44,762 nt of DNA from an uncultured Alphaproteobacteria bacterium. Its GTDB lineage: Bacteria > Pseudomonadota > Alphaproteobacteria > Rs-D84. The stretch's first letter is position 1, and each line of letters opens with the position of its first letter. Under the pieces are notes generated by a model, which searched no databases, was not told where the DNA came from, and was given only the letters and a program-made list of their open reading frames with translations. Below are positions 3,627-7,172 of this stretch, in pieces. Made by a program: the position numbers and the translations under genes. The DNA lies in contig CAMOFE010000003.1 in NCBI GenBank assembly GCA_946613195.1, positions 1 to 44,762 on the forward strand. Reading direction: 5' to 3'.

Positions 3627-6287
3627 ATGACGAATAAATGGGTATATACTTTTGGTAATGGCGCGGCCGAAGGGCGTGCTGATATGCGTAACTTGCTGGG
3701 GGGCAAAGGTGCCAACCTGGCGGAAATGAACTTGGTCGGATTGCCGGTGCCTGCGGGATTCACGGTTACGACCGAGGTTTGTACATATTACTATGATAAC
3801 AATCAAACATATCCATCAGATTTGATGGACCAGGTAAAGTCTGGTATTGCACATATTGAAAACATAATGGGCAAAAAATTTGCAGATTTAGAAAACCCAT
3901 TGTTAGTATCTGTGCGTTCTGGGGCACGTGTTTCAATGCCTGGGATGATGGATACTGTTCTGAATTTGGGATTGAATGACGAAACGGTTAAGGCATTGGC
4001 GCGGCATTCTGGGAACGAACGGTTTGCATATGATTCATATCGTCGCTTTATCATGATGTTTTCTGATGTTGTGTTGGGCGCAGATATTGATTTGTTTGAG
4101 CATACCTTGGAACGCATGAAAGAAGAAAAAGGTGCCAAAGTTGATACAGATTTAACCGCAGATGACCTGAAAGAACTGGTTGAAAAGTTCAAGGAAATCG
4201 GTGTGAAAATCGGCAAGGTATTCCCCCAAGATCCATGGGAACAGTTGAAACTGGGGATTGGTGCAGTATTCGGTTCGTGGATGAGCAAAAAGGCCATCAC
4301 ATATCGTAAGTTAAACAATATCCCAGGTGATTGGGGTACGGCTGTAAACGTCCAGGCGATGGTGTTTGGTAATTCTGGGGACGACAGCGCAACAGGTGTA
4401 TGTTTTTCGCGCGACCCGGCCACAGGTGAAAATAAATATTATGGTGAATACTTGATTAACGCCCAAGGCGAAGATGTTGTGGCAGGTATTCGTACCCCCC
4501 AACCAATGAGCAAGGATGATTCCGGTCGTTTGTCCCTGGAAGAAGCAATGCCCGCGGTGTACAAAGAACTGTGTGATGTTCGTGAAAAACTGGAACAGCA
4601 TTACAAAGATATGCAGGATATGGAATTCACCATTGAACATGGAAAACTGTGGATGTTGCAGTGCAGAAACGGTAAACGTACTGCGGCGGCGGCTGTTCGT
4701 ATGGCGGTTGAAATGGTTGGCGAAGGATTATTGACCAAAGAAGAAGCGATTCTGCGTGTTGGTGCCGATCAATTAAATCACTTGTTGCATCCAATGTTGG
4801 ACCCAAAGGCAGAAAAGAAAGTAATTGCAACTGGTCTGCCGGCATCCCCGGGTGCCGCTGTGGGTCAGGCGGTCTTTAACGCAGATGATGCAGAAAAATG
4901 GGCGGCGGATGGTAAAAAAGTTATGTTAATCCGTGTTGAAACATCGCCCGAAGATATTGCAGGTATGAACGCTGCCCAAGGTGTTATTACCGCCCGCGGT
5001 GGAATGACATCGCATGCGGCTGTTGTGGCGCGCGGTATGGGAACCCCATGTGTATCCGGCAGCCCAGATATCAAAATAGACTATGAATCAAAAACATTAA
5101 AAACAACATCTGGCGTTGTTATTCACGAAGGTGATTGGGTTTCTATTGATGGCGGACGCGGCGAAATTATTGAAGGCCGGGTTCCAACAGTATCTGTGGA
5201 AATGACAGGTAACTTTGGTACATTGATGAAATGGGTTGATGAAATCAAAACATTAACGGTCAAGGCAAATGCTGAAACACCAAAAGATGCAAAACAAGCA
5301 CGTGATTTTGGTGCCGAAGGTATCGGTTTGGCGCGTACAGAACATATGTTCTTTGACCCATCGCGTATCCAAGATATGAGAGAGATGATTCTGGCCGATG
5401 ACGAAGCAGGGCGCAGGGCAGCCTTGGCAAAACTGTTGCCATATCAACAGGCGGACTTTGTTGAACTGTTCAAGATTATGGATGGGTTGCCAGTTACAAT
5501 TCGTTTGATTGACCCACCGTTACATGAATTCTTGCCACATACCGAAGAAGATATTGCATTGTTGGCAAAACATATCGGTAAAACGGTTGAATTTGTGAAA
5601 TCGCGCAGCGAAGCCTTAAAAGAACAAAACCCGATGTTGGGTCATCGTGGTTGCCGTCTGGCAATTACATATCCAGAAATTTGCGAAATGCAAACACGTG
5701 CAATTTTGTCGGCGGCACTGGAATGCAAGGCAGCAGGTGTTCGCGTGATTCCAGAAATAGAAGTTCCATTGGTTGGTTCTAAACGCGAAGTTGACATTGT
5801 GAAATCAGTTATTGATGCAACTGCGGAAAGCCTGTTCGCAGAAAAAGGCACACGTATTGATTACACTGTTGGTTCAATGATTGAATTGCCACGTGCAGCA
5901 TTGCTGGCAAATGAAATCGCAGAATCTTGTGAATTCTTTGAGTTTGGTACAAACGACCTGACCCAGACAACATTGGGTATGTCGCGTGATGATACTGGCG
6001 CAATCTTGGATGAATATCGTGCGCGTGGCGTTTATGTCGCAGACCCATTTGCATCTGTGGATCAGTTGGGTGTTGGGCTTTTGATACAAGATGCTGTTGA
6101 AAAAGCGCGTCGTGTCAAAGGCGATAAAATCCACTTGGGTGTTTGTGGTGAACACGGTGGCGACCCTGCATCTATTGAATTTTTCCACAAGACTGGATTT
6201 AATTCTGTATCATGCAGTCCGTATCGCGTGCCAATCGCGCGTCTGGCGGCGGCCCAGGCGGCGGTTAAATTCCCACGCAAGAAATAA
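3627..6287 (+). CDS. ppdK: pyruvate, phosphate dikinase
   Basis: 886 aa; LLGGKGANLAEM, TARGGMTSHAAVVARGMG and CGEHGGDPASIEFFH motifs. Confidence 0.97.
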   Translation: MTNKWVYTFGNGAAEGRADMRNLLGGKGANLAEMNLVGLPVPAGFTVTTEVCTYYYDNNQTYPSDLMDQVKSGIAHIENIMGKKFADLENPLLVSVRSGARVSMPGMMDTVLNLGLNDETVKALARHSGNERFAYDSYRRFIMMFSDVVLGADIDLFEHTLERMKEEKGAKVDTDLTADDLKELVEKFKEIGVKIGKVFPQDPWEQLKLGIGAVFGSWMSKKAITYRKLNNIPGDWGTAVNVQAMVFGNSGDDSATGVCFSRDPATGENKYYGEYLINAQGEDVVAGIRTPQPMSKDDSGRLSLEEAMPAVYKELCDVREKLEQHYKDMQDMEFTIEHGKLWMLQCRNGKRTAAAAVRMAVEMVGEGLLTKEEAILRVGADQLNHLLHPMLDPKAEKKVIATGLPASPGAAVGQAVFNADDAEKWAADGKKVMLIRVETSPEDIAGMNAAQGVITARGGMTSHAAVVARGMGTPCVSGSPDIKIDYESKTLKTTSGVVIHEGDWVSIDGGRGEIIEGRVPTVSVEMTGNFGTLMKWVDEIKTLTVKANAETPKDAKQARDFGAEGIGLARTEHMFFDPSRIQDMREMILADDEAGRRAALAKLLPYQQADFVELFKIMDGLPVTIRLIDPPLHEFLPHTEEDIALLAKHIGKTVEFVKSRSEALKEQNPMLGHRGCRLAITYPEICEMQTRAILSAALECKAAGVRVIPEIEVPLVGSKREVDIVKSVIDATAESLFAEKGTRIDYTVGSMIELPRAALLANEIAESCEFFEFGTNDLTQTTLGMSRDDTGAILDEYRARGVYVADPFASVDQLGVGLLIQDAVEKARRVKGDKIHLGVCGEHGGDPASIEFFHKTGFNSVSCSPYRVPIARLAAAQAAVKFPRKK

Positions 6288-6315
6288 AAAAACGCGCCAT
6301 TGGCGCGTTTTTTTA
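6287..6315. terminator. intrinsic terminator, probably bidirectional
   Basis: aaaaaacgcgccattggcgcgttttttt. Confidence 0.8.
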
Positions 6316-6546
6316 GTGAATCAACGCTTTTAATGGACGGCGCGTAAAGTCAATAAAGCAAATTAATTGAAACACCGTTGGTGTAATTTTTCCATTAATT
6401 AATTTATAATAATCAGGTTCATCTATGCCCAACGTGTTGCACATAATATATACCGGAATATTCAATTCTTGGCGAATTAGTTCTATTTCGCGTCCGATTG
6501 CGTGGCGGTGGCGAAATAAATCATATGTTTCATTTTTGTTAGACAT
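6313..6546 (-). CDS. small putative HTH (XRE-like) protein
   Basis: 78-aa ORF (MSNKNETYDLFRHRHAIGREIELIRQELNIPVYIMCNTLGIDEPDYYKLINGK..), weak HTH pattern. Confidence 0.5.
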   Translation of the reverse strand: MSNKNETYDLFRHRHAIGREIELIRQELNIPVYIMCNTLGIDEPDYYKLINGKITPTVFQLICFIDFTRRPLKALIH

Positions 6547-6570
6547 CATTAACCCCCGACTGTTTTAACA

Positions 6571-6754
6571 AACAAAAAACCATCGGAATAAATTCAGATG
6601 GTTGGAGTTAGTCAACAATCACACATTGCTGTGCCTTATTCAATATATTCGGCACCCTCCAACCAAAGCGTTGGATTTTTTTATACGTGTCCCCGTGTCT
6701 GCGGGGACACAGTGTGATGGATTGGCTAAATCCAACAACGACAACCGTCGTTGC
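6571..6754 (-). ncRNA. structured RNA: 6S-like small RNA or attenuator/riboswitch-type leader (candidate)
   Basis: minus-strand TTGAAT-17-TATAAT promoter (6790-6785, 6767-6762), several perfect stems, terminal hairpin aaccatc/gatggtt (6578-6584/6597-6603) followed by T6. Confidence 0.6.
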
Positions 6755-6761
6755 AAATGTT

Positions 6762-6790
6762 ATTATATTACACATAATAAAAAAATTCAA
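6762..6790 (-). promoter_or_regulatory. strong sigma70-like promoter for the structured RNA
   Basis: revcomp reads TTGAAT-17 nt-TATAAT. Confidence 0.6.
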
Positions 6791-6866
6791 TCTGAAATAA
6801 TTATTTGTTGACAAATAAATATATTGGGTTAAACTTTGCTGGTCTAGTAACCACAGGGGGCAGATA

Positions 6867-7172
6867 ATGAGAAAGTTGAATGTTGTTCATAATGCGCTGG
6901 TGTTTCGTGAAACACGCAATCGGGGTCAATATAGATGCAGTTTTGTTACATCTAAACATTGTCCATTAAATATGGATAATTGTTGTTGCCGCGAAGATGT
7001 TGGTGTATGCACACGTTCTGGGAAAAAGGGGGCTGAGGCATGTATTTGCCGTATCGGTGGTAAATTATCAACAAATGATGTGAAAGAATGGTCTGGGGTT
7101 ATATTAAATAAATTTGGCGGACATGTAATGTTAAACGCGCTGGTAAAAATGTTGAATTCGCGTAAACGTTAA
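6867..7172 (+). CDS. hypothetical cysteine-rich small protein
   Basis: 101-aa ORF with CPLNMDNCCCREDVGVC; SD ggggg; TTGACA-16-TAAACT upstream. Confidence 0.55.
   Translation: MRKLNVVHNALVFRETRNRGQYRCSFVTSKHCPLNMDNCCCREDVGVCTRSGKKGAEACICRIGGKLSTNDVKEWSGVILNKFGGHVMLNALVKMLNSRKR

Follow-up and report, generated by a model that had tools for sequence, protein, structure and literature searches.

The window analysed here, a 44,762-nt stretch of DNA from an uncultured alphaproteobacterium (Rs-D84), carries on its minus strand a promoter, a long self-complementary stretch and a terminator, and the question is what kind of RNA this unit encodes. The initial annotation had described a promoter-to-terminator structured RNA that was either 6S-like or an attenuator. 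Positions 6790-6553 (minus strand) run from the promoter through a folded leader of about 180 nt and an intrinsic terminator to a ribosome-binding site and the gene of a 78-aa protein (Table 1), for which a Pfam search gave no match. The predicted 185-nt window transcript folds at -71.9 kcal/mol compared with -45.1 kcal/mol (sd 4.4) for 200 shuffled sequences (z -6.2), none of which equalled it. Divergently from the leader, a plus-strand ORF at 6867-7172 encodes a cysteine-rich 101-aa protein, again with no match in a Pfam search.

Table 1. Features of the leader and its downstream gene in the window.
Feature	Position	Strand	Remarks
Sigma-70 type promoter	6762-6790	minus	TTGAAT 6790-6785, TATAAT 6767-6762, spacing 17, 10 of 12
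5' cap hairpin, at predicted transcript start	6736-6754 (stem 6736-6742/6747-6753)	minus	
Hairpin PB, loop (about 6722-6730) contains strand X1	6719-6733	minus	two-sided pair changes
Strand X2 (AUCACAC), pairs with X2'	6712-6718	minus	X2 helix covariation
Hairpin PC (GUGUCCCCG / CGGGGACAC)	6687-6710	minus	core pairs covary
Strand A (UCCAAC), rivals B for strand M	6670-6675	minus	A:M cells 93% paired
Strand M (UGGUUGGAG), partner A or B	6657-6665	minus	alignment, distant copies
P2 stem	6631-6655	minus	conserved loop GAAUAUAUUGAAUAA at 6650-6636
P3 hairpin (CAAU / AUUG)	6616-6628	minus	loop contains X2' (GUGUGAU, 6624-6618)
Strand X1', pairs with X1	6608-6615	minus	X1 helix 97% paired
Strand B (CUCCAACCA), P1 3' arm and terminator start	6599-6607	minus	P1 97.9% paired
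Intrinsic terminator AACCAUC / GAUGGUU and U-run	6574-6603	minus	from sequence; overlaps P1
Shine-Dalgarno-like GGGGG, precedes start codon	6553-6557	minus	from sequence
78-aa gene downstream of leader, putatively leader-controlled	6313-6549	minus	small HTH-like family that recurs behind many copies

The promoter proposed in the initial annotation is present, and every stem that it listed was found again. All of these belong to the conserved fold described below except gttggattt/aaatccaac (6670-6678/6728-6736), which pairs strand A with the X1 region. Stem 6599-6607/6657-6665 is the closing stem P1, 6631-6635/6651-6655 is P2 and 6687-6695/6702-6710 is hairpin PC. The aaccatc/gatggtt hairpin with its T-run is indeed the terminator, and it overlaps P1. 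Of the two pairings offered as an alternative global fold, 6618-6624/6712-6718 corresponds to the long-range helix X2 and the other includes X1. Two things had been overlooked, the repetition of the element as a family and the relation of its 3' half to the Rfam family RF02221.

A blastn search located the element 9 times in the window's genome and several times in most genomes of the same genus, and 94 of 98 loci that were read share one architecture. With 52 copies as input, a covariance model (R1) found the leader in 102 of the 114 genomes of the order. Counted in full, one 1.0-Mb genome holds 53 copies, a genome in a single contig 24 and the window's genome 9. Such recurrence as a covarying family puts the element far beyond chance. 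Named records with copies are mostly gut MAGs of Alphaproteobacteria, including Candidatus Enterousia avicola and intestinigallinarum; Enterousia belongs to order Rs-D84 and has reduced genomes (PMC12306168). Judged by these relatives, the window probably lies near that genus. At E 1e-4, R1 gave no match outside the window's own genus in a 299-genome sample of the phylum, a search that serves as specificity control for R1 only, the new members from models R2 and R3 having been read by eye. Class-wide searches with R2 and then R3, in which up to 8 loci were scored per genome, found the leader in at least 32 and then at least 49 of 387 alphaproteobacterial genomes (39 genera); many of the genomes analysed are MAGs, and E-values from home-made models are rough. 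Matches of a DNA pattern in Prochlorococcus (L203, L268) had no model match and were discarded as chance. Neither phages searched with the window copy nor phages and plasmids searched with L345 gave a match, and phage copies were found by the RF02221 consensus only. At L018, L073, L085, L091, L233 and L246 two to five leaders stand in tandem arrays about 180-500 nt apart, mostly with no intervening gene and at times ahead of one gene. Adjoining the copy at L122, positions 1228-1339 gave a sub-threshold tryptophan leader match (34.2 bits, cut-off 41), which is probably a chance match to a terminator.

Conservation of the fold was measured in an alignment of 121 copies (A2), which was fitted to the structure of R1 and therefore leans partly towards it, and in which the copies counted include paralogues with shared history; P1, PB and P3 were absent from the R1 structure used for aligning. 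In this alignment the junction fold, with X1 and X2 treated as pseudoknots, was 93.1% paired versus 69.7% when shuffled, and its covariation score was 0.567 versus 0.167 for shuffled and 0.054-0.075 for slid structures. An alternative fold with A paired to M scored equally. The idea of the initial annotation that two alternative folds exist is thereby supported. Compensatory changes at homologous loci, which had been proposed as a check, were looked for and found, with two-sided changes at 38 of 40 base pairs. PB, X1, PC, A:M, P1 (M:B), P2 and P3 were also recovered when the columns of a plain MAFFT alignment were scanned without bias. For the two long-range helices X1 and X2, which link the 5' half to the three-way junction, complementarity was greater within than between copies (p 4e-31). 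Three pairs of X1 are changed on both sides in about half of the sequences, and the five core pairs of X2 are 93% paired with two-sided changes in all five. Two-sided changes were also seen in the four core pairs of PC (95.6% paired), in P2 (96% paired, 121 copies) and in the pairs of PB, and P3 occurs as CAAU/AUUG, CUAU/AUAG and other variants. At the 5' cap position 78 of 83 copies have a hairpin of -5 kcal/mol or better, and GU pairs and compensatory changes occur throughout the fold.

Two of these helices compete for one strand. Strand M can pair with B to form P1, which closes a three-way junction holding P2 and P3, or alternatively with strand A. In distant lineages the P1 arms differ yet are complementary (for example GGCGAGAGGT/ACCTCTCGCC, TGGCAGGAAG/CTTCCTGCCA and TGTCGGGGAG/CTCCCCGGCA), and outside the order A/M/B sets of other sequences still match (CCTCTCGC / GGCGAGAGG / CCTCTCGCC; CCTTTTTGCC / GGCAGGAAGG / CTTCCTGCC). 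Strand A covaries with M in distant copies and, because it often extends there into the P2 5' arm, A:M pairing and the sensor-like P2 element are mutually exclusive; in some distant copies (L115, L336-L338) strand A was weak or not recovered by simple search. A terminator lies downstream of 192 of 213 copies, and in 146 of 199 its 5' arm shares its first 4-5 nt with B. With pseudoknots excluded, the lowest-energy fold was A:M plus the terminator in 180 of 192 leaders, which gives a putative default state only, since the energy model cannot score pseudoknots. Judged by sequence, the platform is thus mutually exclusive, with A:M versus M:B and B versus the terminator, and in proteobacterial RF02221 loci with the P3 loop versus the ribosome-binding site.

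We consider it likely that the leader is a cis-acting RNA which controls the next gene by transcription attenuation. Together, the three-strand exchange, the overlap of terminator and B and the lowest-energy folds lead to a default-off model. When A:M forms, B would be left free, the terminator would form and the gene would be off. A putative small molecule or protein bound at the GAAUA element would stabilise the junction and hold B in P1, so that the base of the terminator is blocked and RNA polymerase may read into the gene. The direction of the switch, default off and opened by stabilisation of the junction, is itself inferred.

The sole fixed sequence of the leader, GAAUA-N4-GAAUA-A, closes P2, and GAAUA-N4-GAAUA was present in nearly all of 213 copies. 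In other lineages a helix stands in place of the N4 bases, and the element is therefore an internal loop of two AAUA-type strands. Invariant nucleotides of this kind amid covarying helices make an aptamer-like fold, and we read the element as a putative binding site for a small molecule or protein. Cyclic di-GMP is unlikely as the signal because no GGDEF protein was found in three genomes. The idea of a palindromic kissing loop (AAUAUAUU) was given up because its four central bases vary. With transcription-attenuating riboswitches the leader shares a sensor-like junction with pseudoknots, a competitor strand, a terminator that shares a P1 strand, a position before genes and the existence of terminator and ribosome-binding-site versions. 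It differs from them in that no Rfam riboswitch matched, the ligand is putative only, and up to 53 copies per Mb precede diverse accessory genes instead of one pathway.

The copies are placed like leaders. Upstream of 78 of 83 copies there is a TATAAT-like hexamer, in 60 of them 35-44 nt before X1, compared with 35 of 83 in a control stretch. In 142 of 204 copies a Shine-Dalgarno sequence and start codon follow B at a distance of 40-59 nt, versus 4 within that range on the divergent control side. It tells against the attenuator reading that roughly 30% of copies lack a start codon at the expected distance and that some copies are arranged in tandem with no gene (L018, L073, L085). The proteins behind the leaders include small HTH proteins, secreted cysteine-rich and surface proteins, glycosyltransferases, an outer-membrane barrel, a YadA anchor and a GmrSD enzyme, and by a crude hydrophobicity rule half of the downstream proteins have a signal-peptide-like start. 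In genome G019 about 17 paralogous secreted proteins with a HIATTAYVKGAYN motif (L039-L055) each stand behind their own leader. The proteins downstream at L010, L030, L038 and L118 have a similar N-terminal motif (ANxxxxFIxxKxxRxxVRxKI-like) and are perhaps surface-glycan enzymes; that of L010 had no Pfam match.

Leaders and genes differ in their degree of identity, although few pairs could be compared. Paralogous genes of one genome are 95-100% identical and their leaders only 66-78%, whereas for orthologues in different genomes leader identity is 94-99% and gene identity 98%. In the window, positions 6285-6607 (gene and terminator) are nearly identical to a paralogous stretch in another part of the genome (L032 1289-1607), while the two leaders show about 69% identity with compensating changes. 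Gene conversion of the gene part and selection for distinct leaders are both possible explanations.

In the searched region (6540-6870) the window copy gave no RF02221 (sRNA-Xcc1) match at E up to 5, the 53-bit gathering cut-off not being reached, and other Rfam families gave only chance matches. Distant, GC-rich members of the family did pass this cut-off over their 3' half (L337, 66.2 bits; L345, 56.2; L338, 55.9), and two same-genus copies matched below it (39.7 and 35.2 bits; E 6e-6 and 7e-5 in that genome) at places which R1 also finds. The 87-nt RF02221 model corresponds to the 3' half of the leader, its 9-bp outer stem to P1, its hairpin with the AAUACAAUA/GAAUA internal loop to P2 and its second hairpin to P3, and the consensus aligns onto P1, P2 and P3 of members, including the two same-genus copies. 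Homology is connected through intermediates, in that R1 and R2 find the window copy, RF02221 finds distant R2 members above its cut-off, and R3 recovers 16 of 30 RF02221 loci (best E 2e-12). The window family differs in having a 4-nt P2 cap instead of an apical helix and a terminator as platform. As described, RF02221 is a trans-acting sRNA without the 5' half (PB, X1, X2, PC and A). That designation is attributed to Chen et al. 2011 (RNA Biol) where it is cited in PMC12189769, which also gives seven sRNA-Xcc1 homologues in Xylella, five of them clustered. No description of sRNA-Xcc1 as a cis-acting leader was found in the literature searched.

We examined 28 RF02221 loci, which we take to be gammaproteobacterial from their listing as same phylum, other class, and from the named phage hosts. 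Strands that could pair as X1 and X2 were found 57-108 nt upstream of the core in nearly all of the 27 loci with enough upstream sequence (at 229 nt in one), with own pairing of 39.4 versus 30.6 for cross pairing (sd 4.0, p 8e-15). A gene starts 14-45 nt after the core in most loci, several of these genes being SymE-like, KilA-N, BRO or Rha-like as judged from sequence, and in temperate phages the RNA directly precedes an antirepressor or KilA-N gene. The P3 loop complements the ribosome-binding site (own 17.9 versus cross 13.3, p 4e-8), and 19 of the 28 loci exceed a score reached by 18.5% of controls; in the window's own genus this pairing was absent (p 0.73). Since the P3 loop of the proteobacterial RF02221 loci (L353-L382) complements both, X2 is in effect a copy of the ribosome-binding-site region, and the loop has two possible partners at these loci. 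There, P3-loop pairing with this site appears to stand in for the terminator, and the class seems to have two output modes, translational in one branch and transcriptional in that of the window. With its unannotated 5' half, its position before start codons and this P3 pairing, RF02221 looks like half of a cis-acting switch. Of this class only the 3' half, catalogued as an sRNA, was known before. Both symE and antirepressor genes are elsewhere under RNA control, by SymR and C4. RF02221 copies are found ahead of both, of symE in integron cassettes (PMC12444791) and of antirepressor genes in phages. SymE-SymR and C4 RNAs are antisense, whereas the leader RNA has the same orientation as the gene and lies just upstream of it.

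These results also bear on other readings of the locus. We give practically no credence to a 6S-like RNA that binds RNA polymerase. The length of about 180 nt, the free-standing promoter and terminator and the long-range closing pairing had suggested it, but an RF00013 covariance search gave no match in the window or its genome while detecting 6S in five control genomes, including Caulobacter. In place of a single long hairpin with a central bulge, the leader is a branched three-way junction with pseudoknots, present in 9-53 copies per genome and in most copies placed alike relative to a downstream start codon. The attenuator and promoter-to-terminator parts of the initial annotation are supported and its 6S part is not. 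It is also very unlikely that the unit acts as DNA, as a recombination or cassette site with a symmetry that serves mobility and an RNA fold that is a by-product. Such a site would suit the multiple copies with accessory genes behind them, the occurrence of RF02221 in integron cassettes and temperate phages and the near-identical paralogous genes with different leaders, but the copies are dispersed, keep orientation, promoter, terminator and Shine-Dalgarno spacing, and show GU pairs and compensatory changes throughout.

A terminated small RNA acting in trans on other mRNAs, with the neighbouring gene incidental or started on its own, seems improbable to us. The terminator would release a free RNA, several tandem copies have no gene, and sRNA-Xcc1 of Xanthomonas gave a single band of about 100 nt with ends mapped to 88 nt (PMC2996969). 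Against this, copies keep a fixed distance to a Shine-Dalgarno sequence and start codon, the loops expected to pair with targets vary between copies and are used internally, and in the RF02221 loci the P3 loop complements the adjacent gene's own ribosome-binding site, pointing to action in cis. An attenuator whose signal is an RNA-binding antitermination protein, perhaps encoded by a phage or by the regulon itself, is a serious contender at somewhat less than even chances, and it overlaps with the preferred reading as a sub-case. The only invariant sequence is the short two-fold GAAUA in a loop or internal loop, as expected of a protein site, and many copies (53 in one genome) must answer one signal. 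No candidate protein was found, however, and known protein-dependent antiterminator hairpins are simpler than the conserved double pseudoknot and three-strand exchange.

Returning to a cis-acting attenuator, we lean, by a modest margin of belief, towards a large unrecognised class of switches across Alpha- and Gammaproteobacteria and temperate phages, of which sRNA-Xcc1 is the 3' half only. One common signal, received through the GAAUA internal loop, would control accessory, surface and antirepressor genes, with a regulon of up to 53 leaders per Mb in reduced gut Enterousia-like genomes. Such a density in 1-Mb genomes is unusual among RNA regulators. For an orphan family of 'trans-acting sRNAs' in Xanthomonas, Xylella, E. 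coli strains and phages, this would supply a testable cis switch with its missing half, a clear two-state design and two modes of output. A common signal is suggested by which reduced gut alphaproteobacteria would regulate dozens of proteins, among them secreted, surface and small regulatory ones, and phages may use the same signal for control of their antirepressors.
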